NCBI GenBank assembly: GCA_036172665.1
Contig: CM069872.1
Span: 23,105,001-23,169,000, forward strand
DNA from: Prosopocoilus inquinatus
Taxonomy: Eukaryota; Arthropoda; Insecta; Coleoptera; Lucanidae
Direction of reading: 5' to 3'
Length of the DNA: 64,000 bases
Position numbers and translations under genes: made by a program. The notes below the pieces were generated by a model. That model saw only the letters and a program-made list of their open reading frames with translations. It made no database searches and was not told where the DNA came from. This document shows, piece by piece, positions 1 through 26,339 of the stretch (position 1 is the first letter of the stretch; every line of letters starts with the position of its first letter).

Positions 1-1281
1 AAGGTCGTTTCCGATCATCAGAGGGACTGGGACACGTACATCCCCCTGTTTCTAATGGCATACCGCTCATCTGTTCATGAGACAACAGGGGAGACTCCCG
101 CGAAAGTGGTATTCGGGCGAGAGCCGAGACTGCCCTGCGACCTGAAGTTTGGTGTGAAGCCTGGCGAAGTCTCTGCCGACGAAGATTACGTGAGCAAATT
201 ACGCAGGAAAATGGATGATATCCACAACCAAGTGCGTCACAATATACAGACGGCCAGCGATCGGATGAAGGAGCACTATGACATCAACGCTCAACACGGG
301 GGATACCAACCTGGAGCACTGGTCTGGCTTTATAACCCCCAAAGACGTCGAGGCCTCTCCCCAAAATTACAGACCTCTTGGGAAGGTCCATACAAAGTGA
401 TGAAACGGATCAACGACGTCGTTTACCGCATCAAGAAGGTCCCCCATGGCAAACCCAAAGTAATCCACTTCAACCGGATAGCCCCTTACCATGGAGAAGC
501 AGATGAAGGGACAGTACAAAGGGCGCAAGTTTCCGAAGTGAACTTCGAAACCTTCATGTCTCATCACGCCGAAGGAAGCAAGGCACGGTTTGGAGTGACC
601 ACGGAGAAGCAACAAGATCTCTTTAAAGTGCCACTGGAGTACAGTCTGGCCCACTGCGTAGCAGAAGACCTGAAAATGTCCAAAGGAATCGCTCAGGTGT
701 TTAGGAAGAAATTTGGCCAAATCGAGGAGCTACGAAGACAGCATCCCATGGTAGGCAAGAGCTTGCAGATCATTGATTCGACGGCAGATCGGAGGCGCCA
801 CGTGCATTATTTAGTCACTAAGAAGACATCAAGCGGTAAACCTGACTATCAAAGTATGTGGAGAGCCCTGTATAGCCTGAGGAGAGAGCTAATAGAGAAC
901 CATCAGATGAAGTTGGCCATCCCCAAATTGGGCTGCGGATTGGACGGACTAGACTGGAGAGTAATACGAAGCATGCTGGAAGTCATCTTCCACAGAACGG
1001 GAATTGAAGTCCTAGTCTGCAGCCACCACCCACAGGCAACAGTCAGCAACAGCAAAACCGTAGACTGTTACTTCTTCCAGACGGGAAGTTGCAAGAATGG
1101 GCCAGCATGTAGATTCCGACACCCTCCTTCAAGACTATCACCAGGAACATTTCGAGACGAAACGTTTTTAAGAAGGGGGCAGTGTGGCGCACCAACCGGC
1201 TTAGCGCAAGGCGCCAAGAAGTCGGCCGCTTCGATGTATCATCGGCCGTCACGCGTTCGGGGCCCATATCGAGCAAACTAG
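1..1281 (+). CDS. gypsy pol C-terminus: integrase end, GPY/F module, TARG1-like macrodomain, CCCH zinc finger
   Basis: This is the open 3' end of a retrotransposon polyprotein; its true start lies upstream of the window. Residue numbers below count from the Met at position 55. Residues 1-108 end the integrase core and linker. Residues 109-145 are the GPY/F module (WEGPY... to HFNRIAPY), typical of gypsy integrases. Residues about 185-323 match the TARG1/OARD1 class of macrodomain: an AHCVAEDLKMSKGIA stretch, then YLVTKK with the family's catalytic Lys (K256, bases 820-822), then LGCGLDGLDW with its catalytic Asp (D297, bases 943-945). Residues 338-356 form a CCCH zinc finger spaced C-x7-C-x5-C-x3-H. 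The frame then runs 99 bases into the LTR before TAG. The domain order is seen directly; ADP-ribosyl hydrolase activity is inferred from family residues. A role in countering host ADP-ribosylation is speculation. Confidence 0.9.
   Translation, partial: KVVSDHQRDWDTYIPLFLMAYRSSVHETTGETPAKVVFGREPRLPCDLKFGVKPGEVSADEDYVSKLRRKMDDIHNQVRHNIQTASDRMKEHYDINAQHGGYQPGALVWLYNPQRRRGLSPKLQTSWEGPYKVMKRINDVVYRIKKVPHGKPKVIHFNRIAPYHGEADEGTVQRAQVSEVNFETFMSHHAEGSKARFGVTTEKQQDLFKVPLEYSLAHCVAEDLKMSKGIAQVFRKKFGQIEELRRQHPMVGKSLQIIDSTADRRRHVHYLVTKKTSSGKPDYQSMWRALYSLRRELIENHQMKLAIPKLGCGLDGLDWRVIRSMLEVIFHRTGIEVLVCSHHPQATVSNSKTVDCYFFQTGSCKNGPACRFRHPPSRLSPGTFRDETFLRRGQCGAPTGLAQGAKKSAASMYHRPSRVRGPYRAN
607..1023 (+). other. 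TARG1/OARD1-like macrodomain within gypsy pol
   Basis: Domain-level annotation inside the open frame. The order of conserved blocks matches TARG1: a start resembling DSLAHC-SED-RMGAGIA, a KKFG block, a Y-L-TKK block with the nucleophilic Lys, a KP-Y block, and an IPKLGCGLD-L-W block with the catalytic Asp. In the human protein these catalytic residues are K84 and D125; both are present here at bases 820-822 and 943-945. TARG1 enzymes remove ADP-ribose from glutamate and aspartate and cleave ADP-ribose chain ends. I know of no gypsy element for which such a domain is standard. Confidence 0.85.
1066..1122 (+). other. CCCH zinc finger at the end of gypsy pol
   Basis: Four ligands are spaced C-x7-C-x5-C-x3-H (residues 338, 346, 352 and 356 of the frame starting at base 55), with aromatic residues after the first Cys and RFRH at the end. 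This is the usual spacing of RNA-binding CCCH fingers. In the second copy a one-base insertion destroys the finger after its second Cys. Confidence 0.85.
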
Positions 1282-1507
1282 AATCTTCCAGCATCGAGAC
1301 TTCCAGACGCCAACAGTAGATATAAAATCGCCCGGAGTTGACTCACGAGTCAGTCGAATTCGAGCAGCGATAGTCGAAGTTAGATTTTAGTGTGAAAATA
1401 AATTGTTAGAAATAAATTAGTTTTTAAGCTTCATTAAATTACGGTTAAGTTTTTATCGAGTGTTTTATTCGTTTAAATAAATAAACTCAAACCCTAGAAA
1501 CGTAACA
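1183..1507 (+). repeat. 3' LTR of gypsy copy 1
   Basis: The LTR begins TGTGGCG just after the purine tract AGAAGGGGGCAG and ends CGTAACA, giving TG...CA termini. It aligns along most of its length with the LTRs at 14465-14776 and 20838-21187. Boundaries were set by where the three copies stop matching. Confidence 0.85.
1321..1355 (+). promoter_or_regulatory. LTR core promoter (TATA plus initiator)
   Basis: TATAAAAT at 1321 is followed 31 bases later by the initiator TCAGTC (A at 1352), the arthropod consensus. The same TATA-to-initiator spacing of 31 holds in the other two LTRs (14588/14619 and 21001/21032), where the initiator reads CCAGTC and GCAGTC. This marks the probable start of R in the transcript. 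Confidence 0.7.
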
Positions 1508-2638
1508 GTAACAATATGTTGTATGTTCCTTTGAAAATATTAAATCTTAAATTTTATATTATCCAAAATTCTTAGATGTGTTTATTTCACTTCTATTCGC
1601 GATTACATTTATTAGTATACAGAAGTTCTTGAAAGCATTATTAAACTTAAGAAATATCCGACATTTCAATAATTCCTTAAAGAAATACATTAGTTTATAC
1701 AATTTAAAATTTATAGAAATCTCTTAACTATTCACATTAATAATTAAAGAAATGTTCAAATAGAGTTAATTCATTTTTACATATTTGTGGTTTTATGTCA
1801 GTCCCTGATAGATCTAGGAAGCTATTTATTTATTGAAATAAATTAGCTGTTTTATTTAACAATAATTGATTTTTGGGGAAAATAATTGAACTATTTGTTT
1901 TGTTTTTGGTGTCACGCATGGCTTGTTAGCTTACCGGAAAACAAAAAATAATTAGTATCTTTATTATTTCAAAAAATAATTATATCAAACTTTACATTTT
2001 TGAAAACCTCATTAAACAAGCAATTTATTTGTGTCATAGCCAACTGCGGTTTCCATTTAAAATTAGAAAGTTACAGTCTGTTTCGCAGAACTGGTGCAAT
2101 TTCTACAAAAGATAATACTGTCAGTAAAATCAGTGTTAATTTCTGAATAAAACCGCTTTTCAATTTTCAAAATATCTTGTCAAACAACTGAGATGCTGTG
2201 AAAAATAATTTTTCGGAAAAATTCGTTTTCGGCCGATATTTCCCGAACGAATCGAGATAGCTAACTTTTGTTTCCTGCACTAAGTTTTTCTCGAAAAAGT
2301 AGCATTGGTTCGCGAAAACGGTTTTCTTCTATTCCTATAAATAACTGAGAAACCCTGTAAAACCATCAATAATGGACCACACTGTACAGAGACGTCGTGT
2401 CGTGAAATCTAGTAGATCGTGCATTATATATATAATGAAGTGAAGCTATAAAAGTCTTCGGACCCGTGGTGTATAATTACTATTTTCTTTTATTGGAAAA
2501 CAATGTGGATGTTTTGGATAAGAAAAGATATCCAATTCAGGAAACCTTCAATTTTCATTTTCTTTTTCAAAGGAACTCTTATTACTGCCGTTTACGATTC
2601 AATTCAATATAATTAATTTATGCACTTGTAATTTTCAG
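1508..2638. other. AT-rich gap upstream of phosphate carrier gene 1
   Basis: No coding region is recognisable. The 5' untranslated exon and promoter of the downstream carrier gene should lie here, because a splice acceptor (ATTTTCAG, ending 2638) precedes the start-codon exon. A TATA-like CTATAAATA occurs near 2334, but I cannot place the first exon with confidence. Confidence 0.4.
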
Positions 2639-2662
2639 TAAGCTTAAAATTCAACGCAGAAA

Positions 2663-5600
2663 ATGCTGCCCCCTCTCTTAACAAAGGCACTCTGCCAAGA
2701 ACAATGCAAAATCGAGAAAGAACAACGACAGAACCCCGGCTTAGTCAGTTCACTGGTCACCCCGAGAAGGATCGCAGCGGCGGCTGTCAACCCTGGTGAA
2801 TCATGCGAGTTTGGCTCGCTGCAGTACTTCGCACTCTGCGGAGTGGGGGGCATCTTGTCTTGCGGCATCACCCACACCATGGTCGTCCCTCTCGACCTTG
2901 TCAAATGTCGAATCCAAGTCGACCCGGCCAAATACAAGAGTGTCTTCAACGGCTTTAAAGTGACACTGGCCGAGGAGGGCTTGCGCGGTCTTGCTAAAGG
3001 ATGGGCCCCCACGTTTATTGGTTACTCTGCCCAAGGTCTTTGCAAATTTGGTTTTTACGAGATCTTCAAAGTGAGTCTCAACTGAATTTCGCTCGCAATT
3101 TATTTATTTATTCATTTCATTTAAGGTACTGTACTCTGATATGCTGGGGGAAGAAAATGCTTATCTCTACCGTACTTGGTTGTATTTGGGGGCCAGTGCG
3201 TCAGCCGAATTTATTGCTGATATCGCCCTGTCCCCCATGGAATCGGCGAAGGTGAAGATTCAGACGACTCCGGGCTTTGCCAATACCATGCGGGTCGCTG
3301 TGCCCAAGATTTACTCGCAGGAAGGATGGAACGGCTTCTACAAAAGTCAGTATCTCAGAATAATTGATGCAAATAACAAAGGAATAATATACATGTACAG
3401 GGCGCCTAACTTTTTAAGGAAGCTCCTATGCACACATGTTCATAGGAACTTTTGTTCCATACAACACGTTGGTAAAGTTTGTCTAAGAAATTGAGATACA
3501 CCCTGCATACTCAGTGATCAAAATTACAGATGCACAATTGCTAACTTCGTTATTATTGGAACTAACTATTCTATTTTTCTATTAATTCTTTAATCCTGCA
3601 TTTTATGTTGGCAAATGAAACTATGCTGCCATCTTCAGTAGTTGCGACTTCTATTTTACTAAATCACAGGAGAAGTGACGGTGTCATACCTATCGCTACC
3701 TTATATACGCACTTAGTATATATTATATACTAAGTGCATATATAAGGTAGATAGATGTGGCCATAGTTTTAATTTGGCGCTTTCGAATTTATCTCAGCAC
3801 CGTTGACATTCATAACACCACGACAAAAGTAAGCAGAAGATGCCATTGAAAAAAAAAAATCTTTAATTCTTGCAGTTGCTATCATACCCTTACCTTGACA
3901 TCTTACCTTTCGAAGAAATGTCGACAATAACCAGAGGTTGTTAGCGTAGGCGGTAAGTGGCTGACTCGCCTTCTGCAATCACATCTGGCCTTGGCTGCAC
4001 ATGTTTTTCAACAACCGCGTCCGATTTTTTATTTTTAGCAGCTGCAAGAACTAAAGATTTTTTTTCTTCAACGGCCTCCTCTGTCCTTGTCCACTCACTG
4101 CACATTTCTACGCCTAAAAGAACGAAACGAATTACTTCTTTATTTACCTCTTAAACCATCACTAACTTACGGGATCACCTTCAGCGATGGTTACTTCGGA
4201 TGGACACATGCCAAACAAAATTTTCCAAGGTCAAAGAGTCCCAGAACCCCAGTAGCTATACTACTCAATCGCATCCGATATCAGAAAAAGTTGAAAGTAG
4301 TTTAACTTTTTAACTTTTTCCGACGTCGCGTCGGACGGCTATCGGTTTTATCAATTTTTTTAAAAAAAGCGCTAAAATATTTTTGAAAAAACTGACCAAT
4401 TAGAACGCGTTTTGACTGTCGAACATGGGATATCGGAAGTAATGAGAACTAGACTTAGGCGCTTGATGTGATCAGTAATGTTCTTTCGCTAAAAGTTATT
4501 CTGTCGAAACGGAGCATGATCCTTAATCTACTTGCTTGATTCATAATCCCCTCGCCCCTTCGGATCATTGAATTTTCGTAATTCATAAACAGATCTTGAT
4601 ATATTTTGCTTATTGTTCTTTTAGCTTAGTTAACTGTTTGAATTTGAACTGACAAGAACTAAGAATAATAATATTTTTTCAATCAGCATCAACAAATCCT
4701 TACAGTTTATGAACTTTATAAAATAATAGTTTTGATTAAATCCAGCATATTTTGTTGTCTTCTTGATTGCCATTTGGATCGTAAGTACATGTATCATAAT
4801 TGAAGGAACATGATCTTAAGTTATTAGCGAACGAATGCATCTATTATTGTTAAAAAGTTTATACCTTTATGTTAGATAGACGAGAAAAAGCAGTTGTTTA
4901 CATTGTCTACGTAATAAAGTATAATGTAAATGACGTCATTGTCTACATATAAACATTTACGTTCAGTTCTCTACGCGCACTTCACTGCTTAAAACCGAAT
5001 GAAAAAAAAAATACGACCGTGCAAATATTTTGACAAGTAGCAGTGCAATTGTTCTTTTGATTGCAAATTTAAATTCAGCATGGAAATTAGAGACTCTTAG
5101 CTAATTTAACCGAGTTTCTATCTTAAAAAATCAAAAGTTAGTAATGGTAACCGTTTCAAATTGAATACCCTATCTACAGGGTCACAACTAATTAAAGGAT
5201 CTCGTTAACTATCAGAGGTGTAAAGACGATTGTATTACAAAAAATAGTACCGGTGATTTGGGGTCTATGAAAATATGCAAAAAAAATCTTCTCTGTCTAC
5301 ATTCGTTTCAAAAATGCCATCAAAAAATGAAAATTCTCATTTTCGAAAATTCATTTATTAAAGCAGAATTATAAAATTGGATATTATTATATTAAATTCG
5401 ATGAACAATCTAAATCTAAGACAGTCTGAAGAAATACGTTAGGATTGACAGTTTCGCAATATACAACTGTCCACTGTCTTTATGTGAAGCAAGAATAAAA
5501 TCTGAATGCGACCATTCTACGCTTATGCTTTTATTTTAAAATAAAATATTAAGGGCCGGTTTCATAATCGAATTAAAGGAGGCTTTAAAATTAAAGGCGC

Positions 5601-8010
5601 ATTCTAACCTATAAATAAATACGTTTTCACTCGTTTTCAGTTATTTTAAATTTAAAGTCTGCTTTATTTTAGTTCGATTATGAAAGTTATTAAAAGATAT
5701 TTTAAAATAATCTTTCAATATTGCTAGTCGCGCGAAGCCGGCAAATACGTAGAGCCGCCTAGATGTTGTATTTATAATATCTCGCCGCTTCGTTGCAATA
5801 ATAATCCGAACCACTTTTTTTTTCAATCCCTGTAGTGCTTATTAAAGCTAATAGGCATAAAACCCTACAACTTTTGCATTTAAAGTTATTCTCTCGCTCC
5901 TAAAATAAAACCTATAGATAGGATGAAAAATATAAAAGACCCTGTACATAGCACCAATGGAATACGTCGAAAAAAGCAAAAGAGTACTAACAAAATGGAA
6001 ATAAGCTAGAATACGGGAACGATAAACAAAATAAGGTCAACCATTCTATAAAAAATAAAATAAAAACACTAACGCAAAACGAAAAAAACTTGCGGAAAGA
6101 ACAAATGAAGGAATAAAAATTACAACGAGAAAGGTGAACGAAAAAACAAAAAAATAACGATTACGTGGGGCGCTGTTTAAAAGTTGTAAAAAACGAAAAC
6201 GATCGAGAAATAAAATTGCAAACAGCGTCAATGGAACATCGTAAAACAAACTTGACAAAGGAAAAAAAAAACAAAAGCGAATAAACAAACAAAATGAAGG
6301 GAAAACGGTGGTAAGGCAAACGACAAACAAAAGATAATCAGCGATTATTCGGCTAAACAAAATGAATAGGAAAGAAAACTAACGAAAAATTAAGAATGAC
6401 TACAAGAACAAATACAGTTAAAATATATAACTGCATACGAAAGAAAGAAGAAGAAGAAGAAATCCCAAGAAAAAGACATAATGACATAACGTCATTAGAA
6501 TAGATGCTTTCTTTTGCTTAAAAATTCGAATCTGGTTTCAAGTAGTTTGAATCTGGATTCCGTAGTTGTTGCAACAAAACACCTCAAATTTGAATTATTG
6601 ATAGACAGTTCACCTGAAAATAACTACAATTCAGTCCAAACGAGATTTCAAGGAGAGTGGGGGTTTAATCCGTTTGCAAAAGAACGTCCGTTTTTGCATC
6701 TATACGCGTTTGGATCACGTTTTTGTGAGCGAAAGAAATCACATATAAACTCGTGTTTTATTTTAATTTGACGTCCAGAGTGCTGTCTGATGTGTATATT
6801 GCAGAATTAAAAGTTAAAAGCCATGTTATAAAACAGTACTTGGACAAAAGGAAACAAAAAAGAACACAGAAGTGAACACACTGTGAACTAGAAACGAAAG
6901 ATGATCGACAATTTTCTGGCGGTAAAACAAAAAAACAAAAAAGGACAAATAAACAAAATTGAAACATGAAGCGTATGGTGAACAAAAAACAAAAGAAAAT
7001 CGACAATTTTCTGGCATGGCATTTCAACCATGGCCGCCTTGCATGGGATGACTTATTACGTAGCAAATCCGCTTCAATTTTTTCAATCTGTTTATAAAAA
7101 TACCGAATTTTATGACTCCACTTCAACAAATCAAGAAGATATTCGAGATTTTCGAAAATAGTCAGTTTTTTGAAGATTTTTCAGAAACGACTGAGGATAG
7201 AAAAGATGTTTTTTTATATTTTTACAGACCTATAAATAGCACTATTTGTTTGTAATTTAATCATATTTGCATCTTTTATACTTTATCAGATCCCCATAGT
7301 GACCCTTTAATTAGTTGTAACCCTGTATTATACATATACAGGGTATTTCTAATTTCCGTGGACATGACTTAACAACAGATTTCTGAGCTCAAAATAGAAC
7401 AATTTTACCAAATTTATCTGTATCAGAAACTGCTTTCCTAGGAAACCATTATCGACACAATGGTGTCCAAGGATATTTATTCTCTCCCAGATAAATTTTC
7501 CAGGAGGTGGAGAGACCGAGCCTGATTTCTTTAAAAAAAAATAATGGTTTGCTTCCATCTCTTTTAGGTTTGGTTCCATTATGGATGAGACAAATCCCGT
7601 ACACAATGATGAAATTCGCTTGCTTCGAAAGGACCGTCGAACTTCTCTACAAGTATGTAGTTCCGAAACCGAGGGCGCAATGTTCCAAAGGTGAACAGTT
7701 AGTGGTGACGTTCGCCGCCGGTTATATAGCCGGCGTTTTCTGCGCCATTGTGAGCCACCCGGCTGACACCGTCGTCTCTAAACTGAACCAAGAAAAGGGA
7801 ATGACAGCGCTGGATGCTGCCAAACGTCTAGGTTTCGCTGGCATGTGGAAAGGACTCATGCCCAGGATCGTTATGATTGGTACATTAACGGCTGCGCAGT
7901 GGTTTATCTACGACGCCTTCAAGGTGGCGACGCGCATGCCACGCCCTCCACCACCAGAGATGCCCGAATCCCTCAAAAAGAAACTTGAAGCCCAGGGTCA
8001 AAAGCAGTAG
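2663..8010 (+). CDS. SLC25A3: mitochondrial phosphate carrier protein, copy 1
   Basis: This gene imports inorganic phosphate with a proton across the inner mitochondrial membrane to supply ATP synthase. Coding exons are 2663-3070, 3126-3345 and 7568-8010, joined by GT-AG introns of 55 and 4222 bases (phases 0 and 1), giving 356 residues. The three mitochondrial carrier repeats are visible, with signatures PLDLVK (residues 76-81), PMESAK (173-178) and HPADTVVSK (from 273). The third lacks the basic residue of the general motif, as is usual for phosphate carriers. The block PLWMRQIPYTMMKFACFER is diagnostic of the family. Residues 1-50 are a variable N-terminal extension that probably includes a presequence. 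The start is the first ATG after the acceptor at 2637-2638, so an untranslated first exon is likely. A paralogue with identical splice positions lies at 24174-25555. Confidence 0.95.
3697..3749. repeat. hairpin in intron 2 of carrier gene 1
   Basis: Two arms of about 25 bases, TACCTTATATACGCACTTAG and its near-perfect reverse complement ending CTAAGTGC.TATATAAGGTA, face each other with almost no loop. It may be a small MITE remnant. Confidence 0.6.
5177..7325. mobile_element. TA-flanked inverted-repeat element in carrier intron
   Basis: The left end CAGGGTCACAACTAATTAAA is mirrored by the right end TTTAATTAGTTGTAACCCTG, with TA on both outer sides, as for Tc1/mariner-type insertions. Similarity between the arms continues for about 200 bases. 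No transposase is recognisable between them; low-complexity open frames at 6046-6360 and 6758-7129 are AT-rich noise. A second member of the family sits at 44473-45369. Confidence 0.65.
7408..7530. repeat. MITE relative just upstream of exon 3
   Basis: The core CTAGGAAACCATTATCG and CCAAGGATATT, flanked by AAATTTATCTG... and ...CAGATAAATTTTCCAGGAGGTG, matches the TTA-flanked MITE at 60887-61013. The outer ends are eroded. It ends about 40 bases before the splice acceptor at 7567. Confidence 0.55.
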
Positions 8011-14464: not shown

Positions 14465-14776
14465 TGTGGCGCGCCACTTAGCTCACTACGTCACACTGAA
14501 GGCGTCAAGAAGTCGGTCGCCGGGCTGTCTATAACTCGACTTTTCTAGCGTCTTCGAAGAAGGAACAAACGAGAAGGCAGCGTAGAATATAAAATCGGCC
14601 GGGGATGACTCAGGGGCCAGTCGAGTTCTAATTAGCGATCGTCAAAGTTAGATTTAGTGTATAAAATAAATTGTTGCAACTAAATTAGATTGTAATTATT
14701 ATTAAATTACGGTTAAGTTTGTTACCGAGTGTTTTATTCGATTAAATTAATCAATTTAAACCCTAGAAACTTAACA
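14465..14776 (+). repeat. 5' LTR of gypsy copy 2
   Basis: It begins TGTGGCGCGCCACTTAGC and ends CTTAACA. TATAAAAT at 14588 and a CCAGTC initiator (A at 14619) are 31 bases apart, as in the other LTRs. It lacks about 38 bases present in the 3' LTR. Confidence 0.85.
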
Positions 14777-14777
14777 G

Positions 14778-14795
14778 TGGTGTCAGGTGTTGGGG
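14778..14795 (+). promoter_or_regulatory. primer binding site
   Basis: TGGTGTCAGGTGTTGGGG begins one base after the LTR. The TGGTGTCAG start fits the 3' end of a tRNA-Leu type primer, but the later bases do not decide the isoacceptor. Confidence 0.5.
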
Positions 14796-14873
14796 TTTGT
14801 GTAAATAAATAAACAATTTAAAGTAAATTAAATTTAATCAGATTATTAAATAAGTACAGTATCGAAAAAAACA

Positions 14874-15350
14874 ACGGCTACGAGAAAAGTGTTGTTGAAA
14901 AACTTAAAAGTGGCCGAATTAAAAACCGAATTGGAAGAACGAGAGTTAGAAACCTGTGGTTTGAAAGGCGCACTTCAACAGCGTCTCCGATGCGATTTGT
15001 TGACATCTGGTGAAGATCCAGAGACGTTCCTTTTCGAAATTTCGTGTGGTCCCGCCGATTTTAATAAAATCTTGAAGGATGAATTTCGAGAACAATCCAG
15101 AAATTTAGAGGAAAAGCTTCTAGAACAACCTGAAAATTTAGAGGAAAAGCTTCTAGAACAATCTGGAAATTTCAAGGACGAACTTCGAGAACAATCCGTA
15201 AACTTCAAAGATGAGTTGCAAACTAAATTGATGGAACAATCCAGAAATTTGGACGAGAAGTTTCAAGAACAGTCTGGAAATTTCAAGGACGAGCTTCGAG
15301 AACAATCCAGAAATTTAGAGGAGAAGCTTCTAACAATCTGGAAATTTTGA
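14874..15350 (+). pseudogene. gypsy gag, N-terminal part: SAP-like motif plus 11-residue repeats
   Basis: The first 40 residues (LLKNLKVAELKTELEERELE... with a following GLKGALQQRL) match the SAP motif, a two-helix DNA-binding fold seen at the start of some gypsy Gag proteins. From about 15090 the frame is built of 33-base units that encode 11-residue repeats of the type EQSRNLEEKLL, EQSGNFKDELR and EQSRNLDEKFQ. These are acidic-basic, leucine-spaced and likely coiled coil (hendecads). An in-frame ACG at 14874 stands where an ATG would be expected, so the initiator may have been lost. The frame stops at 15348-15350 after a small deletion within the last repeat, and repeats continue in other frames to about 15480. 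Confidence 0.75.
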
Positions 15351-15458
15351 CAAATTACAAAATAAATTGTTGGAACAATCTAGATCAATCACTTAAACGA
15401 GAAATTTCGAGAGCAGCCCAGAAATTTCGACGAGAAACTTCTAGAACAGTCCGGAAAT

Positions 15459-16166
15459 TTGAAGGGTGAATTTCTAGAACAGACGAAAGGACTCGAAAAT
15501 AAACTAGTGGTAAAAATATCGGAAGAAACAAGAAACCTGCAAGGTAATGTGGAGGAAATAATATTCCAGCAGGATAACAAAATCAAAAGTCTGGAACAAA
15601 TCATGGCGGGACCAGTAGAAACACTAGAAAATAATGAAACCCGAATTGTGAAAGGACCAGCAGAAAATTAGAAATTGAAAATAAAACCACCAACGTTCGA
15701 TGGAAAGTCTTCGTGGCCCAACTACTTCAAACAGTTCGAAGCAGCAGCAAATGCGAACAGATGGACGGCCAGCGAAAAAGCCACTTCGTTAATTGTGGCC
15801 TTGAGAGGGGACGCTATCGATGTGCTACAGACGATGCCGCCAGAGGAACAAGAAGACTTCGACAAGCCGGTGAATAGGATGGAAATACGTTACGGCCCAT
15901 CTGACTGAGGTACACCGTGCGCAGTTGAGGAATCGCTGTCAGAAATGCAGAGAAAGTCTTCAGGAATTCGAAGCGGACGTAACGCGTCTGGCCCAGTTAG
16001 CATATCCCACAGCTCCTGTTGAATTCCTCAAATGTTTGACGGTGCAGACCTTAAATAGTGAGAAAACCCCTCGACCCTGTGGTCGAGGGGTTTTCTCACT
16101 ATTTATTTGGATTACAGCCACAGGTTTTGTGTTGCTTTGTGATTAATGGTGCAGACCTTCATAGAT
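15459..16166 (+). pseudogene. gypsy gag, coiled coil to capsid region, frame-broken
   Basis: A 70-codon frame (15459-15671) continues the coiled coil (FLEQTKGLENKL..., QQDNKIKSLEQ). A TAG separates it from 15675-15908, which holds a retrotransposon Gag capsid motif (PPTFDGKSSWPNYFKQFEA, then WTASEKATSLIVALRGDA, then a YGPS block). Another frame (15925 on) carries the LQEFEADVTRLAQLAYP part before the hairpin insertion at 16053. At least three frame breaks make it non-functional. Confidence 0.8.
16041..16159. mobile_element. 95-base hairpin insertion with 12-base target duplication inside gag
   Basis: GGTGCAGACCTT occurs at 16041-16052 and again at 16148-16159. Between them is a 95-base insert that starts with a perfect inverted repeat: 24-base arms at 16053-16076 and 16081-16104 (AAATAGTGAGAAAACCCC... 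and its complement) around the 4-base loop CTGT. A 43-base tail follows (16105-16147). Removing the insert and one duplicate restores continuity of the gag sequence, which supports a discrete insertion event. Confidence 0.85.
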
Positions 16167-17557
16167 GAATCCGTGACCCAGACAACCAGCAGGCATTGAG
16201 AATGCCCCATCCGAAGACGTCCAAGAACGCATTGGCTTGTGCCTTGGAATTTGAAGCGACGAGACGAGTTTCAAGAGGGCACGTCAATGTGCGAGCGGCT
16301 ACGGGCTTCCAAGAGGAAGAAGAGGAAGAATCCGCTAACGCCAAGGTGGGATCTGCTATAAAGGAGCGACCCAGGCAATATGCCACCGCCGAAGATGTTC
16401 ACCGCATTGTGGAACAGGTCTTCAAGCAGAAGAAGCCGCTGGTGTGTTGGAATTGCCAGGAGGAAGGACATGTTCGCAGGCGATGTCCAAAGTCCAGACA
16501 GGATCCAAGGAAGCCCCAAGTTAAACTAAGCCGGGTCGGTGCAGAGGGTCAAACGTCGACCTGTGTTCAAAGGCCCCCAAAGACGAAAGCCAACCAAGTA
16601 ATATCCCTACGGCAGTTAACCAGCAGTGTCTTCGTGGATGTGACCATTGATGACATTTCTCACACCATGTTGTTGGATACGGGTGCGACGAAGACCATTC
16701 TAAGACCCGACATCATTAAGTCATCTGGACGCACCGAGCCGACCAAGTGGAGACTGAAAACTGCAACAGGAACATCAGCAACTGTCCACGGTGAAGTAGA
16801 AGTTATCATCACCATTGGTTCAACTCCAATAAAACACCGTGCCCTGGTAGCAGACATAGAGGACGAGGCAATTTTGAGCATGGACGTCATGTGTGCGCAA
16901 GGGTTTCAATTGGATTTAAAGCGTGGCGTGATGGCGGTCAATAATGAGGAGTTGGTTCTACATCAACGAGGAGACGTGGCCCCTCGAGTGGTCCTCGCTG
17001 AAGACGTATTACCCAGCAGGAATGAGGTTATCGTCGACGCAAAACTGGACGGTGTTTTTCAAGATGGGCAAGTCATTATGGTTGAACCTAATACTGATGA
17101 TCAGAAGATTGGAAGAGGAGTCCTCGTTGGGAAAATGTTGTTGACGGCGAAGAAGGAAGTACCTGTCCGCCTGATGAACGTCAATTGTTTCTCCATCAAT
17201 ATCAAGAAAGGAACCATCTTGGGAAGCTGCACCATGGTGTCCTCCATCTCCCGCCAACTTGAAGCAAACGTGTCAGACGCAAAAGTCCCAACGAAATTAT
17301 GGGAAGTGGTTATGTCAACAGCCCAGGAATTGACTCCAGACCAGAAGACAAAAGCAAAGAATCTGATCGGCCGCTATCAAGATATATTCGAGGTAGAAAA
17401 TGGATCCAAGGGAAGAACTGATGTCGTGAAACACAAAATAGAGACTGGAGAAGAGAGACCTATCCGTCAAGCTCCAAGGCGATTACCGTTGGCAAAGCGT
17501 GAGGAAGCAGAACGCATTATTCGCGAGATGGAAAAGAATAATGTAATAGAACCATGA
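16166..17557 (+). pseudogene. gypsy gag end (CCHC knuckle), protease and start of reverse transcriptase
   Basis: One frame fuses gag and pol without a frameshift. Counting from the Met at 16196, residues 84-97 are a zinc knuckle (C-x2-C-x4-H-x4-C). Residue 161 starts the aspartic protease motif DTGA within VFVDVTIDDISHTMLLDTGA. The reverse transcriptase leader (RPIRQAPRRLPLAKREEAE) begins before the stop. Homologous sequence in the same frame extends upstream of the Met to about 16166. The TGA at 17555-17557 interrupts the usual [11 protein letters not shown] motif of gypsy reverse transcriptases, and the frame continues directly into the next entry, so this is a single nonsense change. Confidence 0.9.
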
Positions 17558-18790
17558 AGCAGCCCGTGGGCGTCACCAGTAGTGCTTGTGAAGAAGAAGG
17601 ATGGGTCCACCAGGTTCTGTGTAGACTACCGGTTACTCAACAATGTCACCAAGAAGGACAGCTATCCCCTGCCACGCATTGATGATACCCTGGACACCCT
17701 GGCCGGCTCAAAGATCTTCTCAACTTTGGACTTGAGTGGATATTGGCAAGTAGAGCTGACGCCTGAAGATCGAGGAAAGACGGTGTTTTCCATTGGTATG
17801 GGTCTGTGGCAATTCACAGTGATGCCATTCGGGTTATGTAATGCCCCAGCGACATTCGAGAGGTTAATGGAGACGGTTCTGAAAGGTCTGTCCTGGACAA
17901 CGTGCATGGTGTACCTTGACGACATAATTATCGTGGGAAAGACATTCGACGACCACCTGGGAAACCTGGAAGGAGTGTTCCAGTGGCTTCGCGGAGCTGG
18001 TCTAAAGCTTAGCCTCAAGAAGTGTCACCTGTTCCAAAAGGAAGTGAATTACCTGGGGCACATTGTTAATGGAAATGGAATCGCCGTGGACCCTGTGAAG
18101 ATTCAGGTGGTGAAAGACTGGCCAACTCCCAGAAATAAACACCAAATAAGGAGTTTCCTTGGCCTGTGCACTTACTATCGGCGCTACGTTCCTGGATTTG
18201 CAGACATTGCTAAGCCGTTGACAAAACTCACTGAAGAAGGTCGTCCATTTGAATGGGACCAACAGTGCCAAACTGGTTTTAAACAACTAAAGCAGTACTT
18301 GATTAGTGCTCCTATTCTGAGTTATCCTCTCCCGGAAGGAAAATTCGTCGTGGACACAGATGCTAGCAACGTTGGGACTGGTGGCGTACTCTCCCAGATA
18401 CAAGAGGGGCAAGAGAAGGTGATCGGCTACTTCAGTCAAGTCCTATCAAAGCCAGAACGAAACTATTGCGTCACCAGAAGGGAATTACTAGCCGTCGTAA
18501 AAAGGGTAGAACATTTCTACAAGTACTTGTATAGTAGACGCTTCCTCCTGAGGACCGACCATGCCGCTCTAAAATGGGTTCTCCGTTTCAAGAACCCAGA
18601 AGGGCAAGTTGAACGATGGATCGAACGACTTCAGGAGTACGATTTTGAAATTCAGCATCGGGCAGGAACTAGCCATCGAAATGCCGATGCTTTGTCGAGA
18701 AGACCCTGTGCCGAAGACTATAAGCCCTGTAGTCGTTTGGACGAGAAAGTAGCCACGACTGCGAGGACAGCCATTGTTGACGACAAATGA
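17558..18790 (+). pseudogene. gypsy reverse transcriptase and RNase H
   Basis: This continues in frame from the stop at 17555. Counting from 17582, the active-site motif YLDD is at residues 111-114, preceded by [17 protein letters not shown]. The RNase H domain begins near residue 255 with [14 protein letters not shown], followed by [16 protein letters not shown] and a terminal [12 protein letters not shown]. The TGA at 18788-18790 ends this frame through a local frameshift. The next pol segment resumes in another frame as DQENDPDLKL..., with a further TAG near 18930 inside the YWVQ-DS motif. Confidence 0.9.
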
Positions 18791-18940
18791 CAAGGCGAAG
18801 AACTGCGAAGAGACCAGGAGAACGACCCGGATTTAAAATTAGTGCTAGAATGGAAAAGCAGGGACGCGACGCCTACCTGGGAAGAGGTAGCACCATGTGC
18901 ACCGTCCGTAAAATCATACTGGGTGCAGTAGGACTCCATA

Positions 18941-19963
18941 GTGTTGGATCGTGGTCTTCTGAGACGAAGCATAGAGAATCAGGAAGGCATGGAACAGAAG
19001 ACACAGTTACTAATCCCCAAGAATAGGGTACCAGAAGTTCTGAGGGAACTTCACGATGGAACTTCGGGAGGGCATCTGGGAATTAAGAAGACTATGGAGA
19101 AAGTGCGCAAAAGATTTTACTGGGTGAACTGCAAGGAAGACGTGAAGGATTGGTGCCGGAAGTGTGCAATCTGCGCAGCCAGTAACGGTCCCCACAGGCG
19201 AGGCAAGGCTCCCATGAGACAGTACAACGTTGGAAGTCCTTTTGAGAGAGTTGCCATCGATGTAGCCGGCCCATTCCCAGAATCGAATGGTAGAAACAAG
19301 TACATCGTCGTGGTAATGGACTACTTTAGCAAGTGGGTTGAAGCTTACGTCCTACCTAACCAACAGGCAGTCACTATTGCGGAAGTCCTTGTCAGGGAAT
19401 GGATCAGTCGATATGGTGCACCTATGAAACTGCATTCAGACCAAGGAAGGAGCTTTGAATCGGCCTTGTTCAAGAACGTGTGTACTCTGCTCGGCGTACG
19501 AAAAACTAGAACAACTGCACTCCACCCACAGTCGGACGGAATGGTGGAAAGGTTCAACAGAACCATCAACCGATATCTGCCCAAGGTCGTTTCCGATCAT
19601 CAGAGGGACTGGGACACGTACATTCCTCTGTTTCTAATGGCATACCGCTCGTCCGTCCATGAGACAACAGGGGAGACTTCGGCGAAAGTGGTATTCGGGC
19701 GAGAGCCGAGACTGCCGTGCGACCTGAAGTTTGGTGTGAAGCCTGGCGAAGTTTGTACCGACGAAGATTACGTGAGCAAATTATGCAGGAAAATGGATGA
19801 CATCCACAACCAAGTGCGTCACAATATACAGACGGCCAGCGATCGGATGAAGGACCACTATGACATCAACGCTCAACACGGGGGATACCAACCTGGAGCA
19901 CTGGTCTGGCTTTATAACCCCCAGAGACGCCGAGGCCTATCCCCAAAACTGCAGACCTCTTAG
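18941..19963 (+). pseudogene. gypsy integrase
   Basis: Counting from 18941, the HHCC zinc site is H38, H45, C72 and C75. The catalytic triad is D107, D167 and E203, with exactly 35 residues between the last two, as expected for retroviral-type integrases. The frame ends at TAG 19961-19963. The corresponding codon in copy 1 is TGG (the W of WEGPY), so one base change truncates the protein ahead of the GPY/F module and macrodomain. Confidence 0.92.
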
Positions 19964-20767
19964 GAAAGTCCTTACAAAGTGATGAAACGGATCAACGACG
20001 TCGTTTACCGCATCAAGGAGGTCCCCTATGGCAAACCCAAAGTAATCCACTTCAACCGGATAGCCCCTTACCATGTAGAAGCAGATGATGGGACAGTACA
20101 AAGGGCGCAAGTTTCCGAAGTGAACTTCGAAACCTTCATGTCTCATCACGCTGAAGGAAGTAAGGCACGGTTTGGAGTGACCACGGAGAAGCAACAAGAT
20201 CTCTTTAAAGTGCCACTGAAGTACAGTCTGGTCCACTGCGTACCAGAAGACCTGAAAATGTCCAAAGGAATTGCTCAGGTGTTTAGGAAGAAATTCTGTC
20301 TGGTCCACTGCGTAGCAGAAGACCTGAAAATGTCCAAAGGAATTGCTCAGGTGTTTAGGAAGAAATTTGGCCAAATCGAGGAGCTACGAAGACAGCATCC
20401 CGTGGTAGGCAAGAGCTTGCAGATCATTGATTCGACGGCAGATCGGAGGCGCCACGTGCATTATTTAGTCACTAAGAAGACATCAAGCGGTAAACCTGAT
20501 TATCAAAGTATGTGGAGAGCCCTATATAGCCTGAGGAGACAGCTAATAGAGAACCACCAGATGAAGTTAGCCATCCCCAAATTGGGCTGCGGATTGGACG
20601 GACTAGACTGGAAAGTAATTCGAAGCATGCTGGAAGTCGTCTTCCACAGAACGCGAATTGAAGTCCTAGTCTGCAGCCACCACCCACAGGCAACACTCAG
20701 CAACAGCAAAACCGTGGATTGCTACTTCTTCCAGACGGGAAATTGCCAAGAATGGGCCAGCTTGTAG
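19964..20767 (+). pseudogene. gypsy pol C-terminus, copy 2: GPY/F, duplicated macrodomain segment, broken CCCH
   Basis: The same frame continues after the TAG. The macrodomain keeps both TARG1-type catalytic positions (Lys at 20474-20476 and Asp at 20597-20599). A perfect-length 72-base tandem duplication (20226-20297 and 20298-20369) repeats 24 residues of the ADP-ribose loop region (HCVAEDLKMSKGIAQVFRKKF). One extra C in the zinc finger (TTGCCAAG against TTGCAAG in copy 1) shifts the frame, giving a stop at 20765-20767. The copy is therefore dead, but it confirms that the macrodomain belongs to the family and is not a one-off fusion. Confidence 0.9.
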
Positions 20768-20837
20768 ATTCCGACATCCCCCTTCAAGACTATCCCCAGG
20801 AACATTTCGAGACGAAACGTTTTTAAGAAGGGGGCAG

Positions 20838-21187
20838 TGTGGCGTGCCACCCAGCTCACTACGTCAAGGCGTCAAGAAGTCGGTTCGTTATTGTGCGTCA
20901 TCGACACGCCACGCCGCCGCGCCGCCAGGCTGTCTATACCGAACAAACTCGACTTTTTTAGCATCTACGAAGATGGAACAAACGAGAAGGCAACGTAGAA
21001 TATAAAATCGGCCGGATTTAACTCAAGAGGCAGTCGAGTTCTAATTAGCGATCGTCGAAGTTGGATTTAGTGTGTAAATAAATTGTTACAAATAAAATAG
21101 ATTGTAAGCAATATTAAATTACGGTTAAGTTTTTACCGAGTGTTTTATTCAATTAAATAAATTAATTTAAACCCTAGAAGCGTAACA
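20838..21187 (+). repeat. 3' LTR of gypsy copy 2
   Basis: It follows the purine tract AAGAAGGGGGCAG (20825-20837), starts TGTGGCGTGCC and ends GCGTAACA. It contains a GC-rich stretch (about 20885-20930, CACGCCACGCCGCCGCGCC) missing from the 5' LTR. TATAAAAT at 21001 lies 31 bases before the initiator A at 21032. Confidence 0.85.
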
Positions 21188-24028: not shown

Positions 24029-24173
24029 ATAGATGACGTCCGCGGAAGCCTTCAAGTTAAAATTCAATTAAGTACTTCATCAGAAAGAAGAAAGTTCTGT
24101 ACAGTATGCAGTTCGCATTGCCCGTCCCCTCCATTTATTTTCTGTTTTTCAGATTTTTAAATTTCACAAAATA

Positions 24174-25555
24174 ATGTTACCTGCATCCTCAACCGAAGCA
24201 AAGTGCCCCCTACAACATAAAGAACGTTGTTCCAAAAGCCTAGTGACAGGCAGACAAATTGCTGCGGCTTCATCCTCAGGGGAGTCCTGTGAGTTTGGTT
24301 CGCTACAGTATTTCCTGTTGTGTGCTTGCGGGGGCATCCTTTCTTGCGGCACCACCCACACAATGGTCGTGCCGCTCGACCTAATCAAGTGCCGCATTCA
24401 GGCCAACCCTGAAAAGTATAGGAATATCAGGCACGGGTTCAAACTGACGCTGCAAGACGAAGGTGTCCGAGGACTCGGAAGGGGGTGGGCCCCGACGTTC
24501 ATCGGTTACTCGTTTCAAGGCATGTGCAAATTCGGATTTTACGAATACTTTAAAGTAAGTACGCACTTCAATAAGGTAAAGACGTATTTTCTTTTAATGA
24601 ATAAGCTCTGCTGCAGGTGCTTTACCATGACTTAGCGGGGGAAGAATTCGCATATTTACACCGCACTTACATCTACTTGGCTGCCAGCGCAAGCGCAGAA
24701 TTCATTGCAGACATTGGGCTGTGCCCCTGGGAATCGGTTAAAGTGAAAATACAAACAGCCGAAGGCTTTGCGCGGACAATGCGCGAAGCCATGCCGAAAA
24801 TGTACACCGAGGAAGGCACGTCGGCATTTTTTAAAAGTGAGCTTTTCACCTTATAACCAGGGAAAAGAATTCAGGCCTCTTAGTGTTGGACGCTTTTTTA
24901 CGCCGAATGTACTATTTGCTCCCGCTACCTTTCATCGATGCATCGAATTGTTATCGAGTGGGGGTGGAAGTAGTACAATATGAGCGTTCGCACTTCATAG
25001 AAAGTATTGTGGGCGAGCCTATTACAGTCCCAGTATTATTTTCGTATCGTTCGCGGAACAATTGGCCCGGATTCTTTGCCCTGCTTATAACAAGTAAAAC
25101 AGAATTATTGTCAATCAAATTTGTGTATAGGTATAACACCCTTGTGGATGCGACAAATTCCGTACACCATGATGAAATTTACTTGCTTCGAACGAACACT
25201 GGAAGCACTGTATAAATATGTGGTCCCAAAACCAAGAGCCGATTGTACCAAAGCTGAGCAGTTGATAGTAACATTCAGCGCGGGGTACATAGCAGGTGTC
25301 TTCTGCGCGATCGTCAGTCACCCCGCAGATACAGTCGTTTCGAAGTTGAACCAACAAAAAGGACTGAGTGCACTCCAGGTTGTCAAAAAATTGGGCTTCC
25401 TTGGTATATGGAAGGGGTTGTTTGCGAGGATTATTATGATCGGCACCCTCACTGCGGCTCAGTGGTTTATCTACGATGGGTTTAAAGTGGCCATGCAAAT
25501 GCCTCGTCCGCCTCCTCCGGAGATGCCGGAGTCCCTGAAGAGGAAAATGCACTAG
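24174..25555 (+). CDS. SLC25A3: mitochondrial phosphate carrier protein, copy 2
   Basis: This paralogue of the gene at 2663-8010 has coding exons 24174-24554, 24617-24836 and 25131-25555 (introns of 62 and 294 bases, phases 0 and 1). Exon 2 has exactly the same length (220 bases) as in copy 1, and the splice positions are identical. The product is 341 residues with carrier signatures PLDLIK, PWESVK and HPADTVVSK, and the PLWMRQIPYTMMKF block. The N-terminal 45 residues differ most between the paralogues; the carrier domains are highly similar. Start: the first ATG after the acceptor TGTTTTTCAG (ends 24152), implying an untranslated first exon. The C-terminus is shorter than in copy 1 (ends KRKMH). 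Two phosphate carrier genes are also known in Drosophila, but orthology of these two is not established here. Confidence 0.95.
24851..25090. mobile_element. MITE filling intron 2 of carrier gene 2
   Basis: The left end TTATAACCAGGGAAAAGAAT and right end ATTCTTTGCCCTGCTTATAA form a terminal inverted repeat of about 27 bases. The element occupies 240 of the 294 intron bases. A second family member, split by two later insertions, spans 60855-62971. Confidence 0.75.
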
Positions 25556-26339
25556 GCAATGTCGTGAAATGAGCTCGTCTGTGTTTGGACATTTTAAATT
25601 ACCCAGTTTTTGATCTGTGAAAAACTGGCTGAAATATCCACGGGTGCTTAGTATAATACAAACTTACCGATTTTCGTGTGGTTTCATTACGGAAAAGTAG
25701 GGCATAAAGAAATCTTTCAAACTTTTGAATAACAACGACAGTCACTGCTGACAATCTGTTTCAATGTTGCCAATAGTTATAGAACAAATTCTACGACTCA
25801 TCATTGACTACTTATATCATTTTTTTCCTGCCTAAACGGCTCAAGACTTGATGCATGCTGTGACAACTTAATATAAAAATTCTGTTTGAAACTTGGGTTA
25901 CTTCTTCTTCCAAACTCTAAAGGCGCCACTGTCCTAAAAGAGCTGTAATATGGTGGCAACTCTGTTAAGTAAACAGTTTCATACAAGTTTTATTGGCAGT
26001 ACTGATGAGTATTCGACCAGATTCGTCCCACAGTATACACATCAATCAGTAGGGACAGCTTCGGCTTTTTGCTTATACAGTTTCTGAGGGCGCATGTCTG
26101 AAAGCGAACAGTCAATGGTTGATTTTTCAATGGTCACGTCCAGGTAACCACAGGAGCTGAGTTACTACTTCAACATAGCTATTGAACAGACATGCTTTTA
26201 GAATGCCAAGCTTCAGCAGCTAGTATGCTCACATTAACCCTTTAAGAACACGAGTTGTTAAATTTCAATGTGCTGAGTTTGCATCAGGGTCTGCATTCAG
26301 GCTCGGTGATCGCCTGAACATCGCCAAAAAACGGACGTT
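25556..26339. other. 3' region of carrier gene 2 and spacer
   Basis: No further gene is seen. No AATAAA signal is obvious soon after the stop. GGGACAGCTTCGGCT near 26050 and a mirrored AAGCTGTCCCTACT near 26633 suggest old repeat pieces. Confidence 0.35.

Follow-up and report, generated by a model that had tools for sequence, protein, structure and literature searches.

A retrotransposon family of beetles whose Pol ends in a TARG1-like macrodomain and a CCCH zinc finger

The window analysed here, a 64-kb stretch of the Prosopocoilus inquinatus assembly (650 Mb in 173 contigs), opens inside the pol frame of an LTR retrotransposon and holds the remains of a second copy of the same family. The features assigned to the two copies are as follows.

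1..1281, + strand: 3' part of a pol open frame (integrase C-terminal part, macrodomain, CCCH finger and tail), truncated by the window start
385..486, + strand: integrase p58 C-terminal (GPY/F-type) module (PF22938, E 2.2e-11)
610..1017, + strand: TARG1/OARD1-type macrodomain
820..822, + strand: lysine matching catalytic K84 of human TARG1 (alignment)
943..945, + strand: aspartate matching catalytic D125 of human TARG1 (alignment)
1066..1122, + strand: CCCH zinc finger, C-x7-C-x5-C-x3-H (PF00642, E 4.3e-6)
1171..1182, + strand: polypurine tract AGAAGGGGGCAG, within the open frame and directly 5' of the LTR (sequence)
1183..1509, + strand: 3' LTR, beginning TGTGGCGC (blastn)
14582..21187, + strand: second, older copy of the same family (blastn, tblastn, ORFs)

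In the genome the pol frame begins upstream of the window, as an open frame of 1193 aa, and the locus (L072) has a SAP-gag frame and a pol frame with reverse transcriptase (RT), RNase H, integrase, macrodomain and finger; this copy gave no match to the gag C-terminal part or to a protease, and Pfam found no chromodomain in the window frame. The 3' LTR is identical to the 5' LTR, which lies beyond the window (L072:1657-1983), at 327/327 bases by blastn, and the window copy is therefore young. The conserved C-terminal peptide LRRGQC is the translated polypurine tract, which places the macrodomain and finger module at the extreme 3' end of the coding region. The frame running from a GPY/F integrase module into a macrodomain and then a CCCH finger is as the original prediction described it, with coordinates and sequence blocks correct. 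LTRs, a polypurine tract and the order PR-RT-RNaseH-IN, by which Ty3/gypsy elements are recognised, are all present, the protease ahead of RT being taken from the related proteins P0123, P0124 and P0222. As judged from these sequence features, the element is a Ty3/gypsy LTR retrotransposon family of beetles, with a Pol that ends in a predicted TARG1-type module and a CCCH finger.

An older related LTR (L072:1360-1656; 80.7% over 305 columns) directly adjoins the 5' LTR of the window copy, an arrangement that insertion at the margin of the older LTR would give. The older copy at 14582-21187 keeps LTR remains at 14582-14778 and 20985-21187, with gag, CCHC, PR, RT, IN and macrodomain in broken frames between them; its LTR stretch is 88.5% alike over 244 columns. 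The macrodomain of this copy has a short internal duplication, in which an HCV/A-EDLKMSKGIAQVFRKKF stretch occurs twice, and its frame ends inside the finger. Two neighbouring clusters of open frames, at 2648-8010 and 24072-25663, read like putative mitochondrial phosphate carrier genes.

Compared with solved macrodomains, that of the window is closest to TARG1 (phmmer E 2.7e-29; best other 6.6e-5), and the predicted structure has the TARG1 fold over the whole domain at about 37% identity, so that TARG1 is the top match both by sequence and by modelled fold. A fold lacking the ADP-ribose pocket, the structural finding proposed as grounds for discarding the assignment, did not occur. The failure of profile searches to find a macrodomain, proposed as another such ground, did not occur either: the TARG1 match is strong, but with Pfam Macro (PF01661) the window scores 17.8 bits, below the curated cut-off of 22, a cut-off that is passed by two further macrodomain lineages of the same genome described below (A, 38.4 bits; B, 27.5 bits). 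Alignment to TARG1 confirms that equivalents of the catalytic lysine (820-822) and aspartate (943-945) are both present in the window copy, as had been proposed, and from the likeness to TARG1 together with these two residues we predict that the domain is an ADP-ribosyl hydrolase.

The finger has the spaced C, C, C and H of zf-CCCH (26.9 bits; cut-off 20.5) and is a putative RNA binder; its best solved match is CPSF4, and it has no fold match in the VIA list, the rows of which mostly span model residues 17-166. The proposed echo of antiviral PARPs in the pairing of macrodomain and CCCH finger proves to be a resemblance and nothing closer: membership in the antiviral CCCH-PARPs (PARP7/12/13) was considered and rejected, as Pfam to E 1 finds no PARP catalytic domain and no WWE domain in the 426-aa frame. 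When the structure model (ma76810ee2005) was compared with BFVD using Foldseek, the best viral match was VP8 of Kadipiro virus (40% identity). Proteins of iridescent, thrips and cressdna viruses follow it, and similar domains thus recur in arthropod viruses.

With the module as query, all 150 scored places in the genome match over its full length at 97–100%, 145 of them free of stops; the initial screen let through 1422 candidates, and 150 is therefore a lower bound on copies. The integrase end as query likewise matches at 150/150 scored places (99–100%; 2492 candidates), and 67 distinct 3' flanks are found among 70 fetched copies, the window's own included. The module is thus a family feature, with at least 150 places here and proteins from other beetle genomes, and its joint to integrase is not unique to this locus. 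Chance similarity or a local assembly artefact was rejected on these grounds (150/150 places, 67/70 distinct flanks, the other beetle proteins). A domain misread from noise, or a joint made by misassembly of the window locus, has the weak Pfam Macro score in its favour and nothing else; set against the same places, flanks (67 among 70 loci) and proteins, we regard it as refuted, with next to no probability left to it.

Selection was examined in 60 of the 150 listed places, ranked by similarity of the integrase with the module then read downstream, a sample that favours recent copies. The module is present in 59 of the 60: 52 have an intact frame, six an indel, and one a stop only. Lysine is kept in 58/59 (the other has a gap) and aspartate in 59/59. 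Variants found in a single copy comprise 67 nonsynonymous and 31 synonymous changes (omega-like 0.76; p 0.13 against neutrality), near neutral as expected after insertion. Shared variants, which have passed through replication, comprise 13 nonsynonymous and 22 synonymous changes (omega-like 0.21; p 5e-6 against neutrality), these 35 not all being independent. The macrodomain alone gives 10 to 16 shared variants (omega-like 0.23; p 1.8e-4), and linker plus finger an omega-like value of 0.16 (p 0.008). Shared and single classes differ by Fisher test (p 0.002; macrodomain alone 0.009), and the shared class of the module does not differ from that of the integrase sequence (p 1.0, with integrase counts from an earlier copy set). 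Among the first 40 integrase-chosen copies, shared variants in the macrodomain alone stood at 8 to 5 and were not significant (p 0.14); the run with 60 copies also weighted transitions, so its neutral expectation differs. An initial selection test (pN/pS 0.00 to 0.08 across cargo classes) was discarded and replaced by the integrase-chosen copies, because its copies had been ranked by similarity of the cargo protein itself and it was biased.

Selection has maintained the module through the multiplication of the element. That it is a passenger, a captured host sequence carried along without function, is consistent with the known capture of host sequences by retroelements and with the broken modules (indel or stop) in 7/59 copies, but we consider it very improbable given the omega-like value of 0.21 on shared variants, an active site conserved across beetle lineages, retention in 59/60 copies, and a TARG1 fold maintained at about 37% identity.

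Two protein searches extend the family beyond this genome. Residues 181-426 of the frame as query gave 207 proteins, of which 120 were listed, and residues 1-400 with a longer length range gave 342, of which 120 were again listed. All 240 listed proteins contain the macrodomain; both queries contained it too, and this figure therefore says nothing of the share of related integrases that have none. Proteins were called element-like if the integrase-end motif lay upstream or the finger and tail downstream, which by motif holds for 148 of 241 (the 240 plus the window); K is present in 144 of these, D in 146 and the CCCH finger in 134. A single 75% cluster, mostly from Aromia moschata, accounts for 113 of the 235 proteins clustered, and 30 element representatives were used in place of the full set for that reason. 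Among these lineage representatives K is conserved in 27/30, D in 27/30, His in 27/28 and the finger in 23/30, with a mean column conservation of 66%. K or D is lost in P0018, P0187, P0232, P0032 and P0036, which may be dead copies.

Named records at the top of the first search and in the second give the beetle genera Aromia, Molorchus, Exocentrus, Callosobruchus, Leptinotarsa, Gonioctena, Diabrotica, Brassicogethes, Pyrocoelia and Holotrichia. The 148 proteins assigned by the motif rule include Cerambycidae, Chrysomelidae and Lampyridae (the family assignments of four genera come from a look-up). The motifs are missing from the proteins of Brassicogethes (Nitidulidae; P0010) and Holotrichia (Scarabaeidae; P0036), yet both fall inside the element clade in the first of the two trees described below. 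In the longer polyproteins P0123, P0124 and P0222 the module comes after protease, RT, RNase H and integrase. P0206 shows the same domains apart from the protease, P0132 gives SAP, gag, a protease and the integrase end with no RT match, and the Aromia polyproteins begin with SAP and gag. Pfam Macro at E<=0.05 is found in P0123, P0124 and P0132 and not in P0206 or P0222, in both of which a custom profile finds the macrodomain.

Several records stand apart. Element proteins P0128 (in a record named Klebsiella pneumoniae) and P0221 (Erysiphe pulchra) lie on contigs of 5–6 kb and are most likely insect DNA in bacterial and mildew assemblies. Rhamnusium bicolor has three gene models for macrodomain proteins (P0044, P0048 and P0060, two of them in one 75% cluster), possibly the cargo of another type of transposon. 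Of the viral contig scans, one gave no match and another a single distant locus.

The origin of the domain was approached by searching the genome with the Photinus OARD1-like protein, 113 of 1315 candidates being scored. The host OARD1-like gene lies at C5:3752646-3753242, is 59–60% identical to the query, and has a GT-AG intron inside its macrodomain at a point where the element reads straight through. Three further element-like lineages are among the scored candidates, at five (A), two (B) and two (C) places:

C1:29178085, C1:39145453, C3:38271856, C8:44396676 and C7:13856939: lineage A (L114-L117, L123)
C6:42116932, C6:36690604, C6:23380143 and C3:58265844: lineages B and C (L118-L121)

Lineage A has a 1916-aa open frame at four of its five places, and a stop-free frame leads from its macrodomain to a putative gypsy-type RT start some 230–280 residues further on, which puts the macrodomain before the RT. 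We base this RT start on the motif SSSPWSAPVIMVRKK...RVCIDYRALNSI; the 600-base L145 piece gave no RT match in Pfam. The stretch of lineage A that was read has no CCCH finger. Lineages B and C, known from the domain stretch alone, end in similar linker-like sequence and look like pol linkers. Outside the beetles, the macrodomains of P0087, P0056, P0241 and P0242 lie close to those of bdelloid OARD1s in the tree, and all of these proteins but P0056 have a retropepsin-like domain (DTGAD motif) after the macrodomain; these protease-fused proteins possibly record a separate capture in LTR elements of rotifers.

In a first tree, from which the further lineages of the window's genome were left out and P0232 and P0032 dropped, the 28 element rows form one clade (98/92), and a grouping of element rows with the beetle host-like proteins P0038, P0039, P0044 and P0048 is not rejected (p-AU 0.507). 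In a second tree, with lineages A, B and C and the host gene added and P0018, P0236, P0036 and the aphid rows P0249 and P0254 also dropped, lineage C falls inside the post-integrase group and host OARD1 outside it. Several clades are compatible with the AU test: all beetle element macrodomains together (p-AU 0.465), or the post-integrase macrodomains alone (0.443), with A (0.135), with A and B (0.178), with beetle host sequences (0.196), or all these with the host (0.387). A clade of post-integrase macrodomains with the protease-fused proteins is rejected (0.0003; 0.035 in the first tree). The original prediction of a captured host TARG1-like gene finds a candidate donor in the host OARD1 gene (C5:3752646-3753242); the tree places the element macrodomains apart from beetle OARD1, while a clade uniting the two is not rejected (p-AU 0.196).

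A broader proposition, which we hold tentatively and at rather less than even odds, is that erasers of ADP-ribosylation are a group trait of the gypsy-type elements of beetles, acquired or relocated on more than one occasion and placed at two points of Pol (with a CCCH finger downstream of integrase, and with no finger upstream of RT), and that LTR elements of another, rotifer-like animal group made a separate uptake beside the protease. If this is true, host ADP-ribosylation of retroelement proteins, of cDNA ends or of silencers on them would be a real and old invertebrate defence.

The explanation that we favour, with a probability of roughly 0.6, is that the module acts as an eraser that keeps the element's proteins, its cDNA ends or nearby silencers free of ADP-ribose. 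Predicted fold, active site and selection are the part of this explanation with direct support, and we infer every later step. As part of Gag-Pol, the module would be packed in the particle and travel with integrase (and RT), whether or not freed by the protease, and the CCCH finger would hold it on nucleic acid. Its substrates there could be single ADP-ribose units on acidic residues, either of Gag/Pol or of host proteins close by, and on the terminal phosphates of element cDNA or insertion breaks. Host ADP-ribosyl transferases would place such marks, whether in the nucleus, with DNA ends and chromatin as targets, or in the cytoplasm, with RNA and protein as targets, and by removing them the element would shield its complex against tagging, blocking or silencing.

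According to PMC8053099, TARG1-type enzymes take single ADP-ribose units off acidic residues, as well as off the 5' or 3' phosphates of dsDNA and ssRNA; they also bind RNA and collect at DNA damage. The host genome has PARP catalytic domains at four places (five matches over the cut-off, one with two internal stops), here counted and not classed. In fly parp-1 mutants gypsy-superfamily elements tend upward, a derepression that may be indirect, as a passage of the same source states (PMC7712786); a rise in expression on loss of PARP-1 is no demonstration that ADP-ribose marks sit on element complexes. Mammalian L1 is silenced through mono-ADP-ribosylation of KAP1 by SIRT6, according to an excerpt of PMC4695847. 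Further support for an eraser comes from the second position for a macrodomain, before RT, in the same genome. Against it count the Pfam Macro score under the cut-off, the loss of K or D in some proteins, the missing protease and incomplete gag of the window copy, and the limits of the selection test given above.

Other gypsy elements have a chromodomain at the same C-terminal place, where it chooses the insertion site. The main alternative, which we consider unlikely, gives the module a comparable part, as a reader in place of an eraser: bound to integrase, it would anchor the integration complex on chromatin that carries ADP-ribose (damaged or open) and in this way select the site of insertion. 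Its position C-terminal to the GPY/F module fits such a reader, as does the PAR-dependent arrival of TARG1 at DNA damage (PMC8053099, in part); the SAP domain in gag may bind DNA too, and the chromodomain is named among accessory domains of LTR elements in part of PMC6338049. Binding alone should not need the catalytic K and D, each of which is kept in 27/30 representatives, and another lineage has its macrodomain before RT, away from integrase.

A second alternative, to which we assign a low probability, overlaps with the eraser reading and differs from it in place and target: the module would counter mono-ADP-ribosylating PARPs of the cytoplasm whose targets are foreign RNA or virus-like particles, as alphavirus and coronavirus macrodomains do, and the finger would bring it to RNA. 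A few Tribolium proteins group with the ancestor of the PARP7/11/12/13 branch (a passage of PMC4245714), TARG1 clears ADP-ribose from ssRNA ends (a passage of PMC8053099), Foldseek finds matching structures in insect viruses (VP8 of Kadipiro virus at 40% identity, iridescent and thrips viruses), and the CCCH finger resembles CPSF4. Against it counts that insect PARPs would have to mark retroelement RNA, a hypothetical step, the host PARP places having only been counted.

A very abundant beetle family with, in its Pol, a well-preserved relative of an enzyme that clears ADP-ribose tags off proteins and DNA suggests either that hosts use such tags against elements or that elements must remove them to insert. 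Macrodomains of RNA viruses are of interest as drug targets because they are able to undo host ADP-ribosylation (PMC7729036, in part). An enzyme fused to Pol, under selection and at high copy number, points to ADP-ribosylation as something that retroelements must undo. The family offers a natural and testable case for how PARPs act on reverse-transcribing elements and integration intermediates, and how they bear on the control of such elements in insects.

Chromoviruses are gypsy elements with a chromodomain after integrase. The beetle element shares with them a domain of chromatin-mark type after integrase, but has a macrodomain and finger in that place, Pfam finding no chromodomain in its frame. 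With human TARG1/OARD1 (C6orf130) and insect OARD1 it shares the fold, as predicted here, and the catalytic K and D; its macrodomain differs in lying, without an intron, within a retrotransposon Pol and ahead of a CCCH finger, whereas the host OARD1-like gene has an intron. Viral macrodomains (alphavirus nsP3, coronavirus replicase, rubella p150, Kadipiro, iridescent) are likewise encoded by a parasite, several of them within polyproteins, but their carriers are not LTR retroelements; most have MacroD1/D2 residues, according to a passage of PMC4245714, whereas the domain of the beetle element is TARG1-like and linked to integrase. An enzyme domain has also been added to the LTR elements Juno and Vesta of bdelloids (DEDDy exonuclease and GDSL esterase; PMC5408684, in part) and to an orchid gypsy element (AlkB m6A demethylase; PMC9289625, in part), in these cases a different enzyme in an extra ORF, as against in-frame fusion to Pol in the beetle element; none of the terms 'macro domain', 'ADP-ribos' and 'CCCH' occurs in PMC5408684. 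The original prediction knew of no gypsy lineage with such cargo, and the open-licence PMC literature searched, in the parts covered (subscription papers, preprints and Repbase being outside its scope), describes no macrodomain in an LTR retrotransposon. Captured enzymes in LTR elements and viral macrodomains are both known already; what we rate as new, within that literature, is a macrodomain in an LTR retrotransposon, which adds an enzyme class to those captured by LTR elements.
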